A DNA stretch of 64,000 bases from Streptococcus pyogenes (GTDB lineage: Bacteria; Bacillota; Bacilli; Lactobacillales; Streptococcaceae), in the NCBI RefSeq assembly GCF_002055535.1, contig NZ_LN831034.1:1054001-1118000 (forward strand), read 5' to 3'. The first letter of the stretch is position 1. Each line of letters starts with the position of its first letter. The notes beneath the pieces were generated by a model. The model worked only from the letters and a program-made list of their open reading frames with translations, had not been told where the DNA came from and searched no databases. The translations under genes were made by a program, and so were the position numbers. Shown here piece after piece: positions 27,001 to 44,559 of the stretch.

Positions 27001-28294
27001 TTAGCCCTCCTGCTTTTCGACTAATTAAGGTTGGCCTGTCGCTATTTTTCTTTTCGATTTCTTTTTGTGGGTTTTCCACAATAGATAGCACACCGACCTG
27101 TGTTTCTTCCGAGACAATCCCCGCTAAATTGCCTGCAATTTGAGACTCCTCTAAGAGATTTGCTGGTAGATTGCGAGTAAATTTATACTTAATGCCAATC
27201 CAATCTTTAGGTCCTATCTTAGACGTAGGATAGCTTGCAATAAGCTTATATCTGCGGTTCATCCCGCTCATAAACTTACGCTCTTTTGTCTTAGCTAAGT
27301 TATCCATAGCTTGCAAACGATAACGTAAAGCGATGCCGCTAGCTGTACCGAACGATTCGTCACTGATATTAGCAACCATAGCAGTCCTAAAAATTAAGTT
27401 CTCTAGTCGGTCGAGCAAATGCTCTTGCGTTGCATCGGCATCTGGCTTTTGTAAAAACTCAACAGTTAATTGCTGTGCATCGGTGTCTTTTAGATTGATA
27501 ATGCGGGTGTCTCTAAGAGACTTTAATGTCTCGTCGTCTAGCTCAGCACCCAAAATTTTAAGATAAGCGTCTGCGAAATACTCAACGTCATTGGCTTTTT
27601 CGGAGATAGCTTTATTAAACGCATTAATTAATGTCACAACGCTAGCTAGCAAGCTTTGCCGCTCTTCGTTTTCGACATACTCAATCATTGGCACACCATC
27701 AAACGGATGTGGATCGCTCTCCCCGATTTCAAGGTCTTTTTCGCCATCTTTAAAATAAGTGATTTCGCTGGCGTCTGAATAAGACCCCTCTAAAACACCG
27801 TCCTTATTATAAAAATAGCGCACAGCAAATAACGGCTTTTGTCTAATAGAGTCGTCATAGACAATAAATCCTTCAAGAGGCGTCAGATAAGTAATTCCAA
27901 CCTCTGCATTCTCGTCATTAAAAACTAATTCATAGCCATGTCCGTAAATACTGCAAATCTTTGATAGTTCTGCGTTGTTATCGTCTTGATCATTGTATCC
28001 GTCTAATAACTCTAAATAATTGCTGACTTGTTTATTCTCGTGGCTCGTTTGGACTGGCACACCGATAAAATAGCCGTTAAATGTATCAACGATGTATTTT
28101 GCAAAATTAACAACCAAGCGATTATCAGGCTTGTATTGCTCTTTTTGTTTTTGTTGCAAAATAGCATGATCACCCTCATATAGCTGCTTATACGCTGAAT
28201 AACTAAGGTTAAACGACCTGTGTTTTTGGATTAACTCGCTTAACAAATCTTTTGTCATCTCTGTATCTGATGGCACAATAAATAATTCTGGCAC
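26969..28294 (-). CDS. Portal protein (SPP1 gp6-like)
   Basis: 441 aa. Core stretches include NRLVVNFAKYIVDTFNGYFI and FGTASGIALRYRLQAMDNLA (stem/wing helices) typical of SPP1-type portals. It forms the dodecameric ring for DNA passage. It shares one base with the terL stop. Confidence 0.92.
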   Translation of the reverse strand: MPELFIVPSDTEMTKDLLSELIQKHRSFNLSYSAYKQLYEGDHAILQQKQKEQYKPDNRLVVNFAKYIVDTFNGYFIGVPVQTSHENKQVSNYLELLDGYNDQDDNNAELSKICSIYGHGYELVFNDENAEVGITYLTPLEGFIVYDDSIRQKPLFAVRYFYNKDGVLEGSYSDASEITYFKDGEKDLEIGESDPHPFDGVPMIEYVENEERQSLLASVVTLINAFNKAISEKANDVEYFADAYLKILGAELDDETLKSLRDTRIINLKDTDAQQLTVEFLQKPDADATQEHLLDRLENLIFRTAMVANISDESFGTASGIALRYRLQAMDNLAKTKERKFMSGMNRRYKLIASYPTSKIGPKDWIGIKYKFTRNLPANLLEESQIAGNLAGIVSEETQVGVLSIVENPQKEIEKKNSDRPTLISRKAGGLNGQDTTTVLE

Positions 28295-29568
28295 TAGATA
28301 CCTCCTTTAAATGTTTTGACGATGGTTTTAGTCGCTCTCATGTCGTCTGACATAGCATACCTTGTCGCATCTATCGCATGGTTATCCTTGTCTTCTAAAC
28401 GAGGTTTAGGGTTGCCATCTCTATCGACTTGATAGTCGATATTTTCAAACTCTCGAGCGATATTTGGTGTCCGTTTTGGGTCTATACAGATAAAATCTAA
28501 GTCATCTAACCAGCGCTCCCCAAACTCGACAGAATCTGGTCCTTTTTTAACGCCTTTTATCCGTTTGATGCCAAACTCGTTTTTAAGCTCAGCATTACTT
28601 TTAGGCTCAGCACTTTCAGCAAACATCTCATCACTCTGATATCCTTTAGTCGTCAACCACTTAGCCAGCTGCCTGTTTGATATCTTCTGACCATAATACT
28701 CGTCAATAGCATAGATACCATTTTTCTTTTTATCATAATGCCAACGTACAAAAGCAAGCGGGTCAGTTGCATAACCATAGTCAATACCGTTACGGATATT
28801 ATCGAAATCGGCTACTTGTTCGTCAGTAATACGTTCGAAGCGTAAGTTGTCAAATGGAACAACACCCGAACCAATGGCCTCTCCTAAATACTCCCAACGA
28901 TAACGACGTTCTGAACGCTCTCTCGTGGCTTCTGCCTCGGCTATAAACTCTTTGGCAATAAAAGGATTATCTTTATACGTAGATGCGTGTACAAACGTAT
29001 TAGACGGCTGAAATTGGCTCTCATATTTTTTGTTAACCCAAGACTGTTTACGTTTAGGTGGATTGTATGTATAAAAAAATTTATAAAAAAGACCATCACC
29101 GAGTTCCCCACGCAATAGGGAGTTAGTGATAGTTTTGACTTCGTCCTCGGTTTTAAATTCCGCAAGCTCCTCGATCCAACCGATAGCAAAAGGAAAACGA
29201 CTATCTTTTAAGGACTTGATACGTTCAGGATTTTGTGCTCCTCTAAAGACAATGTAATTACCTCTAGGGATGTACGTTATCCTTAGAGGTGATTTGTTAA
29301 ATTTAAAGTAACGCTCTAGCCCTTGCTCAGATATAGCCCATTTAATTTGCTCATAAACAGACTGCTCCAGAGTATTATCTGTTTTACGGATACAAACCGC
29401 ATTGACAGGATACTGTATTATTAACCTCGAGATAATAAAAGCAATATTAGATGATTTACCAGAACCACGTCCGCCTTTGCAAGCGATATTTAGTATTTGA
29501 GGATTCCAAGTCGCTTGCACGACAGGCTTAAAACCAATTGGGATAATATCAGCTAAATCAACTACCAT
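28294..29568 (-). CDS. Terminase large subunit (PBSX family)
   Basis: 424 aa DNA-packaging motor. Start at ATG 29568 (GGGTG 6 nt upstream), overlapping terS by 11 nt. Walker A is CKGGRGSGKSS (Lys38), the Walker B-like strand is FPFAIGWIEELAEF, and a nuclease-type acidic residue is in GIDYGYATDPLAFV. The C-terminal DKDNHAIDATRYAMSDD is typical of the family. Confidence 0.93.
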   Translation of the reverse strand: MVVDLADIIPIGFKPVVQATWNPQILNIACKGGRGSGKSSNIAFIISRLIIQYPVNAVCIRKTDNTLEQSVYEQIKWAISEQGLERYFKFNKSPLRITYIPRGNYIVFRGAQNPERIKSLKDSRFPFAIGWIEELAEFKTEDEVKTITNSLLRGELGDGLFYKFFYTYNPPKRKQSWVNKKYESQFQPSNTFVHASTYKDNPFIAKEFIAEAEATRERSERRYRWEYLGEAIGSGVVPFDNLRFERITDEQVADFDNIRNGIDYGYATDPLAFVRWHYDKKKNGIYAIDEYYGQKISNRQLAKWLTTKGYQSDEMFAESAEPKSNAELKNEFGIKRIKGVKKGPDSVEFGERWLDDLDFICIDPKRTPNIAREFENIDYQVDRDGNPKPRLEDKDNHAIDATRYAMSDDMRATKTIVKTFKGGI

Positions 29569-29938
29569 TGTCTTGCACCCATGAATTAGCAAGTACGATA
29601 GGCTCGTCTATGCTGATTTCCTGCTTGTCTGTCGGTTTATAACCTGCTCGGTCAAGGATATCTTGAGAAGCTTGTAGTCTTACCAATTCTGATTTTGCGT
29701 TTTTGCTTAGATTAACAAGCGTTCCAATCGCAGAAAGAGCATATTTGCCAAAAGCTTTTTCTGCGATTTCATCGTTTAATTTATTCCAACCCGATTTATC
29801 TTCTGGGTCATTTTCCCAATTTCGTAGCTGTCTGTCTGTGATACCGATTATTTCCGCAACTTGTGCTTGATTAGCGGTTGGATTTAATAATTTAAACTCA
29901 ATAGCATCAAGCATTTTTGCCTTATTTGCTCTTGCCAA
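29558..29938 (-). CDS. Terminase small subunit
   Basis: 126 aa. N-terminal helix-turn-helix (LNPTANQAQVAEIIGITDRQLRNW) followed by a helical oligomerisation region. It recognises the packaging site and stimulates TerL. Its 5' side borders a 609-nt noncoding, hairpin-rich segment, a plausible place for the packaging signal. Confidence 0.87.
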   Translation of the reverse strand: MARANKAKMLDAIEFKLLNPTANQAQVAEIIGITDRQLRNWENDPEDKSGWNKLNDEIAEKAFGKYALSAIGTLVNLSKNAKSELVRLQASQDILDRAGYKPTDKQEISIDEPIVLANSWVQDNGS

Positions 29939-30078
29939 AATATGTTCCTCCTTTCGGAAATTTTCGGAAATAAAAAAGTCACCACAATGTGATGACTAAT
30001 TGGTTAACCATAGATAAATAGCAAATGAATGCTAAGCCTATTGCCTACCCCATTCTGGGACACTTCTATTTATCAAAC

Positions 30079-30121
30079 AGGCTTTGCACGAATCGAACGT
30101 GCATAAACGACCATTAAGCCT
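30079..30121 (-). ncRNA. tRNA-like fold 1 (acceptor stem plus T-arm)
   Basis: On the minus strand a 6-bp stem AGGCTT/AAGCCT closes a 13-nt spacer and a perfect T-arm GCACG-TTCGATT-CGTGC (30086-30102). The loop matches T54-T55-C56-R57-A58 of real tRNAs. No complete 5' acceptor half or canonical anticodon loop is present, so it is not a normal tRNA. Confidence 0.6.
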
Positions 30122-30338
30122 ACTAACCACAGGCAAGGTTGCGACCCTTGTTTTACTTGCGGTTAATCAAATGAGTCAATCTGTTGTGAATACGTACACG
30201 TAGACTATACAGCCGATCTATGTATCTTTTTTATCAATCGTCATTGGTAGGAATATGACTATCAACCAAGTAAAAACCAGTATATCAGTGCGTGACTGCC
30301 TTTCGGGATACTGGGTCGCGCCTCTTCTGGGCGCTGAT

Positions 30339-30381
30339 TGAGACGGCAGGAATCGAACCTGCATACCCAGTTGTCGTCTCA
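30339..30381 (-). ncRNA. tRNA-like fold 2 (acceptor stem plus T-arm)
   Basis: On the minus strand a perfect 7-bp stem TGAGACG/CGTCTCA stacks directly on T-arm GCAGG-TTCGATT-CCTGC with a 12-nt spacer on the 5' side. This is exact T-half geometry (7 + 5 bp). Upstream, at 30382-30410, a D-arm-like GCCTGATGGCGGTA is recognisable, so this may be a reduced tRNA gene. Confidence 0.65.
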
Positions 30382-30547
30382 ACTCGCTGTACCGCCATCA
30401 GGCTACAAAATAACAAGTTTGATTGTAGTTAAAGTTGGCGACTAAATAAAATAGTCAGTGATTAAAAGGTTATCTCTTCTTGTTATTTTGATAATACTAT
30501 AATAACATGTAAAAATATGTATAAACTATCTTATTACTGTATAAAAA

Positions 30548-30982
30548 CTAGCTAAAAACTCCTTTCTCAGCAAGCAACACACCCTCTCTGTACAGCTCTG
30601 CAAAAGCTAACAAAGCAATGTCAAGTGTATCATAGTAAAAGCTCTCTGACATACACAATTCTGTATAAATAACCTTATCTGCCTTTTTATAAGGCGCTAA
30701 GTATTTGTCATACAAAATCCTGCGTCTCTCTGGCTCTAGTATCATACTGACGGCTTGCTCAATCGCATCCAGCTCTTGTTCTGCTGACACACGGTTGAGC
30801 GCTAGTCTCTCAACAGGCTTGCTTGGCGTTCCATACGGTTGTCTTGGCTCAAAGGAATAAGTGGCTGTCACTTTTTGAGTATCTACATCATTAGCTATCC
30901 TTCGCCAACGTGGATACTCTCTCAATTTACGCTTGGCATTAGATTTTGTTTTTTGGATATCAATCTCTGGAAAAAACGTCAT
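30548..30982 (-). CDS. ArpU-family late transcriptional regulator
   Basis: 144 aa. N-terminal MTFFPEIDIQKTKSNAKRKL and a sigma-70 region-4-like C-terminus (RRILYDKYLAPYKKADKVIYTELCMSESFYYDTLDIALLAF) match the ArpU/RinA-type regulators found just upstream of terminase genes. It likely switches on the packaging, structural and lysis operon. RBS is a G-run. Confidence 0.85.
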   Translation of the reverse strand: MTFFPEIDIQKTKSNAKRKLREYPRWRRIANDVDTQKVTATYSFEPRQPYGTPSKPVERLALNRVSAEQELDAIEQAVSMILEPERRRILYDKYLAPYKKADKVIYTELCMSESFYYDTLDIALLAFAELYREGVLLAEKGVFS

Positions 30983-44439: not shown

Positions 44440-44484
44440 AAAAAGCCCCACGCTCTCAAAGTTTGGCGACTCTGAGCGTGAGGC
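44437..44484 (-). terminator. Minus-strand terminator between P63C and integrase genes
   Basis: GCCCCACGCTC (44445-44455) pairs with GAGCGTGAGGC (44474-44484) with one mismatch; the T-run lies on the minus-strand exit side. The plus-strand exit has no T-run. Confidence 0.6.
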
Positions 44485-44559
44485 AAGACAGTATAAGAAA
44501 CAACCATTAAAAAGGTCATTTTCTTGTACCTATTTTATCAAATTGAAAGATGGTATGCA

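Follow-up and report, generated by a model that had tools for sequence, protein, structure and literature searches.

The tRNA-like domain of tmRNA consists of an acceptor stem and a T-arm, and it has no anticodon arm. The two phage elements described here, A and B, resemble this domain in lacking an anticodon arm, but differ from it in having a short linker and no tag-coding part. The artificial hairpins AT1 and pATSer, which are model substrates of RNase P (PMC11143913, PMC4975455), contain the same parts, an acceptor and a T-arm, and bacterial RNase P cleaves such hairpins (PMC11143913); 12 phage elements with a single bulge are similar to these constructs, and a U at position -1 is common among the minimal elements. 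However, AT1 and pATSer are laboratory constructs with or without a 3' CCA, whereas the phage elements are encoded, lack a CCA, and in many cases contain a 6-15-nt linker with GG. In mitochondrial tRNA punctuation and in the t-elements, RNase P and RNase Z cleave at tRNA or tRNA-like folds within a long transcript and thereby free other RNAs (PMC9181182, PMC4975455). These systems belong to organelles, whereas A and B come from a phage and their cutting is a prediction. Phages also encode tRNAs, and some members of the series described below are tRNAs, but A and B have no D-stem, no anticodon arm, and no tRNA call by ARAGORN or Rfam. The GOLLD RNA (RF02032) lies in the same kind of leader in 25 loci, where T-arm elements bracket it, although the locus studied here contains no GOLLD. 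The vicinity of GOLLD to phage tRNA islands is known (PMC12286853). Hence, tRNA-like folds, punctuation, and GOLLD-tRNA proximity were already known, while the minimal elements in phage leaders seem to be new, since no description of them was found in the open-access literature that was searched.

In the window, by which we mean the whole 64-kb stretch of Streptococcus pyogenes DNA that was analysed, the minus strand contains a gene for an ArpU-type activator, a gap of 609 nt with both folds inside, terS, terL, and the portal gene, in this order. The activator gene (30548..30982) was assigned to the ArpU family of phage transcriptional activators by its match to phrog_248 (E 4e-48), and it had no match in the Pfam search; it adjoins the leader on its upstream side. 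The terminase genes are terS (29558..29938; small subunit, phrog_2538, E 2e-42) and terL (28294..29592; large subunit, Terminase_3, E 5e-45). In a blastn search, the leader was closest in DNA sequence to phages of S. dysgalactiae and S. pyogenes. A coding function of the leader was set aside on the ORF list alone, in which the minus-strand leader ORFs are 54 and 43 aa long and start with TTG. Elsewhere in the window, there is a match to RF02589 (S. pyogenes small RNA 779816) at 44440-44524 on the minus strand, which adjoins a 374-aa ORF starting at 44524.

The leader RNA itself, also on the minus strand, can be divided into modules. A sigma-70-like promoter candidate is located at 30496..30525 (TTTATA or TATACA, then TATAGT; 9/12 in the consensus scan), and it is a weak candidate, since the scan gave four sites in the region against 1.9 expected. 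Downstream of it lies a 5' head domain (30406..30490), which according to sequence and fold is closed by CAAAATAACAAG/CTTGTTATTTTG (30490-30479 with 30417-30406), followed by element A (30339..30381), a spacer (30122..30338), element B (30079..30121), and a 3' tail module (30013..30074), which is closed by GATAAATAG/CTATTTATC in the fold and recurs in other leaders. The terminator scan places an intrinsic terminator, AGTCATCAC-ATT-GTGGTGACT and then TTTTTATTT, at 29977..29997, which is predicted to end the leader RNA before terS. The spacer between A and B is common to, or swapped among, related phages, and it contains a terminator-like hairpin followed by a hairpin of the form AACCGCAAG...CTTGCCTGTGGTT (30164-30125). 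The first of these was seen by eye at 30314-30277, 3' of element A, and is followed by TTTTTA, so that the whole site covers 30314-30271; it has homologues in related leaders and is absent from the output of the terminator scan. The second, AACCGCAAG-CAAGG-GTCGCAA-CCTTG-CTTGTGGTT, is conserved and recurs in many leaders, as identified by a scan that was agnostic to the loop. It has a stacked geometry like the elements, with another 7-nt loop and no GG, and the copy in the window has one T-to-C change. Two prophage RNAs reported from a tiling array, SR1175500 and SR1175900 (PMC2765633), could lie in such a leader.

A sequence-only reading of this DNA had described two T-domain-like folds on the minus strand upstream of terS, each with an acceptor-like stem of 6-7 bp closing on a T-arm with the loop TTCGATT, and both were indeed recovered at this place. 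Element A (30381-30339) consists of TGAGACG, a 12-nt linker, the T-arm GCAGG-TTCGATT-CCTGC, and CGTCTCA, which gives exactly 7 + 5 bp, and it is flanked by U-1 (30382), A73 (30338), and T74 (30337). Element B (30121-30079) consists of AGGCTT(A), 12 nt, GCACG-TTCGATT-CGTGC, and (A)AAGCCT, which gives 6 + 5 bp and an A.A mismatch at 7-66, and its flanks are U-1 (30122), G73 (30078), and T74 (30077). The exact geometry of 7 + 5 bp with a 12-nt spacer that was part of the same description is thus found in A, but not in B. The placement of the elements in the leader of the packaging operon has to be qualified, since the intrinsic terminator at 29997-29977 separates them from terS. In both elements, the acceptor stem is stacked on a T-arm with a TTCRA loop, as in tRNA (RF00005), while the D-stem and the anticodon arm are missing, and the linker contains a GG.

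Two such elements are rarely obtained by chance in a sequence of this length. Among 20,000 dinucleotide shuffles of the 609-nt leader, the mean was 0.0018 elements, with at least one element in 36 shuffles and two in none. The scan found only A and B in the entire window on both strands, and shuffles of the window (n=300) contained 0.29 elements on average and at most four. Since single elements are thus expected at the scale of the window, the rarity lies in the presence of A and B together in one leader. If any loop is allowed, this stem geometry with linkers of 10-14 nt is common, with 19 occurrences per strand in the window, and it is therefore the T-loop that makes A and B rare. A covariance model scored B with 55.5 bits and A with 48.5 bits, both of which were part of its training set, and the next-best match in the window (14.7 bits) was the tRNA-like end of the host tmRNA. 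The Rfam search of the window at the gathering threshold identified the tmRNA and an unrelated sRNA and nothing else. There was no match to tRNA (RF00005) in the window, and none of the 67 tRNA matches in the genome fell on A or B. ARAGORN called only the tmRNA in the window and left A and B uncalled. At E <=10, the leader gave weak Rfam matches only, some of them to the T-arm of tmRNA, and an identity of A and B as tmRNA was rejected, as their matches to it were weak and local (7.3-13.7 bits). When folded as isolated RNAs, both elements adopted the described structure (z -2.50 and -1.93), and 5/200 and 9/200 shuffles, respectively, folded equally well; an alternative fold was also obtained for B together with its upstream hairpin. 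In the RNAfold ensemble of the whole leader, both T-stems had probabilities of at least 0.95, and the acceptor pairs had probabilities of about 0.9 in A and only 0.01 in B, possibly because the tail also carries the sequence AGGCTT.

Related loci were collected via ArpU, terS, and a pattern for the 3' module, and a blastn search with the leader identified 100 Streptococcus phage records. Since most of these loci overlap or belong to close relatives, the counts that follow are not independent. The 174 leaders that could be delimited from landmark to terminator showed 26 element orders, and six of them had no T-arm. A further pass gave 76 distinct leader sequences, three of them without a T-arm. 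Among their 99 distinct T-arm elements are 12 hairpins with a one-nucleotide bulge, 28 elements with linkers of 4-20 nt, 23 of tRNA length, 26 long ones, and 10 that are unclosed. Where more than about 20 nt separate the strands, many closures may be due to chance. Up to five T-arms occur in one leader, and their order is largely fixed, with the CGTCTCA type usually first, the TGTTCCT type near the end, and others between or after them. Acceptor sequences recur by class, and related leaders are mosaics of modules joined at the T-arms. The series starts with full tRNAs, continues with forms that have a short linker, and ends with hairpins in which a single base is bulged. Predictions for the leader elements include the full tRNAs Ser-gct, Lys-ttt, Thr-tgt, and Arg-tct, and some members are recognised as tRNAs by Rfam, by ARAGORN, or in GenBank (tRNA-Ser in LYGO9 and JX01). 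In the long TGTTCCT class, a script count identified a D-arm stem of varying sequence in 13/16 elements, with a GATTGG-like loop and GG in the loop in 11/16. Members of the CACACGC class (L044, L056, L069, L078, and others) look like cloverleaves in which the first arm is a T-arm-like hairpin with the loop TTCRATT. When 11 loci without hits were rescanned with looser rules, 10 still had no T-arm, some of the loci being incomplete; together with the six leaders mentioned above, this indicates that the elements are dispensable. A and B accordingly belong to a large modular series, missed by the sequence-only reading, whose members range up to real tRNAs and flank the GOLLD RNA on both sides.

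In species genomes, the distribution is narrow. The covariance model identified elements in 7/118 streptococcal genomes, in 4/148 genomes of the order, two of which are outside the genus, and in 3/299 genomes of the class, where the two others are marginal (E 0.004 and 0.006); each count includes the source genome. A search for ArpU-like genes matched 30 records, and 11 non-streptococcal phage loci with such a gene were examined. The T-arm scan was positive in seven of these, one more (LBR48) contained Rfam tRNAs, and the remaining three, one from Latilactobacillus and two from Oenococcus, had neither elements nor Rfam tRNAs. Hence, the gap between arpU and terS contains tRNAs or tRNA-like elements in some phages of Lactobacillus and Enterococcus as well. 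ARAGORN predicted tRNAs for Asn in phiFL1A, Arg in phiFL2A, Tyr and Ile in phig1e, Gln, Glu, and Phe in Lj771, and Met in JNU_P2; the tRNA-Ile call also led us to reject the idea that phig1e has an element without a normal anticodon arm. Minimal forms outside the streptococci are represented by two elements in Lv-1, both without R73, and by one in Lj771. Locus L248, from another family, has a gene whose product matches phage genes annotated as ArpU, followed by two elements with short linkers and by a terminator, and no relatives of its ArpU-like protein were found in viral contigs. In two Lactobacillus brevis phages, Rfam matched tRNA over 67 nt (L280:3510-3575) and 58 nt (L281:3514-3571), where ARAGORN made no call. 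These tRNAs may be non-decoding, and the anticodon loop in L280 appears shrunken. Two leader tRNAs (L109:3910-3987 and L281:3656-3730), one of which adjoins GOLLD, have the predicted anticodon TTA and are possible readers of UAA stops.

The nucleotides that flank the elements resemble those of the host tRNAs. R73 is present in 82/92 and U74 in 88/92 leader elements, and all 36 short-linker elements have both. None of 33 distinct host tRNAs (30 loci, from the 67 genome matches) has an encoded CCA, while 28/33 have R73 and 32/33 have U74, in agreement with a report that genomes of Streptococcaceae have CCA-less tRNAs only and need RNase Z (PMC8549757). Element A with A73-T74 and B with G73-T74, neither followed by a CCA, both have the sequence features of a CCA-less RNase Z substrate. 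They also display those of a putative RNase P substrate, namely an acceptor/T-stem stack, a T-loop, and a T at position -1. Among the 38 minimal 5' contexts, U-1 was present in 27, and position +1 was an A in 24 and a G in only six. Of the three functions that had been proposed from the sequence, RNase P/Z processing sites are thus the best supported, since the parts that these enzymes recognise are kept, which makes this a sequence-based argument. The resemblance to tRNA is true of the shape, but mimicry is not by itself a function. A regulator of terS translation is not favoured, as the distance, number, and class of the elements vary and the terminator lies in between.

We consider it about an even call that the elements are RNase P and RNase Z sites that punctuate a noncoding-RNA leader transcript. 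The stretch between arpU and terS would then encode a noncoding-RNA transcription unit with its own terminator. In this unit, A and B would be stripped-down tRNA-like elements that keep an acceptor stem, a T-arm, and, if they have a linker, a GG reminiscent of the D-loop, and from which the decoding part has disappeared along with the D-stem and the anticodon arm. RNase P would cut on the 5' side and RNase Z on the 3' side, after position 73, separating the leader into structured modules, one of which would be the GOLLD RNA in related phages. The RNA would be made, folded in this way, and cut in vivo, and the release of the modules would be the selected trait. The sequences show the layout, the terminator, the fold, the compensatory changes, the linker GG, R73-U74, and the position of the elements around GOLLD. 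Punctuation is favoured because the retained parts are those that RNase P and RNase Z read while decoding is lost, and because of the terminator and the bracketing of GOLLD. Several observations speak against it: the low probability of B's acceptor stem in the fold of the whole leader and the alternative fold of B with its upstream hairpin, the two modest covariation measures, the T-arms that do not close, the scarcity of G at position +1, the lack of R73 in Lv-1, the leaders without any element, and the small number of species genomes in which the model finds them.

Alternatively, the excised tRNA-like RNAs of about 44 nt could be the product rather than the by-product, CCA-tailed by the host enzyme and serving as decoys for readers of the acceptor or elbow, such as a tRNA-modifying defence protein. 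The recurrence of acceptor sequences by class and the arrays of up to five T-arms, with full tRNAs predicted among them, speak for this idea. However, the minimal forms have no anticodon loop and would be no decoys for anticodon nucleases, and the idea does not explain the placement of the elements around GOLLD and at the stop codons of other frames; we find it unlikely. The latter placement was seen at six loci outside the late leader, where an open frame of 65-235 codons ends in a stop codon within which (TA|A or T|AG) the acceptor of a minimal element begins (L003:712, L005:685, L040:2238, L231:1502, L234:1502, and L244 on the minus strand). A cut by RNase P at these sites would shorten the stop codon. 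Stretches with complementary ends, seen by eye, come after the six elements.

A terminator-like hairpin was identified within 400 nt 3' of the last T-arm in 178/186 clusters, many loci of which overlap, and the leader therefore appears to form a separate noncoding-RNA unit. The same terminator could have another role if the leader folds let the polymerase pass it before terS, so that antitermination or attenuation would serve the late genes. Its conservation is compatible with such a role, as are the second hairpin observed by eye after A and the fact that the window scan lists no promoter-like site between the terminator at 29997-29977 and terS. Yet the number, order, and class of the elements vary among leaders that share the terminator, and similar elements are also located outside these leaders, where other open frames end, which makes antitermination a rather improbable explanation.

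Covariation was examined in 36 short-linker elements (linkers of 6-15 nt), a set that was chosen for pairing from 43 minimal cores by dropping seven with fewer than five Watson-Crick pairs; a mixed alignment with the non-streptococcal elements was left out of the modelling as several acceptor strands were misplaced. All six acceptor pairs that were counted and four of the five T-stem pairs change on both sides. The covariation score was 0.840 against 0.234 in shuffled alignments (0/500 as high) and at most 0.166 in slid ones. Three of five measures exceeded all 500 shuffles, while the other two were modest, with 10 doubly changed pairs against 8.1 (20/500 as high) and 21 pair types against 18.9 (55/500 as high). 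For example, B (AGGCTT/AAGCCT) and its counterpart in L092 (AGACCT/AGGTCT) are nearly equal in linker and T-arm, and their acceptor stems are compensated. We also searched for the 5' flank, the linker GG, and the T-arm without requiring the closing stem, which was nevertheless retained, with 6 or all 7 of its pairs, in 13/13, 8/9, and 4/9 variants for three flanks, the third of which (TATA) was loose and also caught unrelated T-arms. Of 92 elements, which were distinguished by their sequence including 27 nt upstream, 49 close, and swapping their acceptor strands lowered this number to 13.1 on average and to 24 at most; this control was limited to linkers of 0-20 nt because of the chance closures at longer distances. 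The suggestion that different stems with the same shape reflect selection is thereby supported, as related phages show compensatory changes in the acceptor and T-stem and keep the stems found by their flanks. The compensatory base pairing points to a feature of the RNA as opposed to a packaging site in the DNA.

The linkers are also conserved. A GG is present in 36/36 filtered elements (20/20 distinct linkers; shuffled mean 15.2, maximum 26) and in 40/43 cores before the pairing filter, and it is absent from the one-bulge hairpins. The scan that was agnostic to the loop returned 36 elements with 7-nt loops, three, three, and four with loops of 5, 6, and 8 nt, and 18 with 9-nt loops, 14 of which arise when one pair of these hairpins is opened. 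Among those with 7-nt loops, 22 have TTCRA and all of these have the GG, as does one of the 14 others; eight of the 36 are the different, conserved hairpin with the loop GTCGCAA. In tRNA, the GG of the D-loop docks on the T-loop, and by analogy the elbow may be kept in the elements with a GG linker. A further explanation is that the elements are decaying tRNA genes, remnants of a tRNA island of the phage that persist by chance and are rearranged by recombination in the T-arm, for which one may quote the gradation from full tRNAs to fragments, the mosaic modules joined at T-arms, and the 10/99 elements without closure. However, the covariation score, the closure of elements found by their flanks, the swap control, and the linker GG all point to selection, and the one-nucleotide-bulge and 12-nt-linker forms do not resemble random decay, so that we regard mere decay as quite improbable.

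GOLLD was identified in 25/230 records, several from the same contigs. A T-arm element is located downstream of it in 25/25 and upstream in 22/25 of these loci, and in 18/22 a distance of 315 nt separates the upstream T-arm and the beginning of the GOLLD match. Two of the other three loci, from one contig, have an upstream element with 4/5 T-stem pairs, below the scan rule, and in the third the sequence ends at the locus edge. No match to GOLLD was found in the window or its whole genome, and the idea that every leader has GOLLD was rejected, since it is present in only 2/147 species genomes. That the elements are joints within one large ornate RNA, a GOLLD-like assembly, rather than cutting sites is very improbable, for although their distance to GOLLD is near-constant and PMC12286853 mentions tRNAs within the linker of GOLLD, this RNA is absent from most loci (25/230 records and 2/147 species genomes).

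Returning to punctuation by RNase P and RNase Z, we tentatively propose, at somewhat short of an even chance, that phages of lactic acid bacteria have evolved non-decoding tRNA-like processing signals, reduced down to a hairpin with one bulge, which punctuate a noncoding-RNA operon ahead of the packaging genes. In effect, a phage would use tRNA punctuation of the mitochondrial kind, with natural counterparts of the artificial minimal RNase P substrates, to free GOLLD and other structured RNAs. If so, these elements would be natural, selected versions of the minimal RNase P and RNase Z substrates, and they would provide a testable answer to how phage RNAs of the GOLLD type obtain their ends. 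It would also mean that the late leaders of phages can hold a noncoding-RNA unit that is missed by ARAGORN and Rfam annotation, as in the window.
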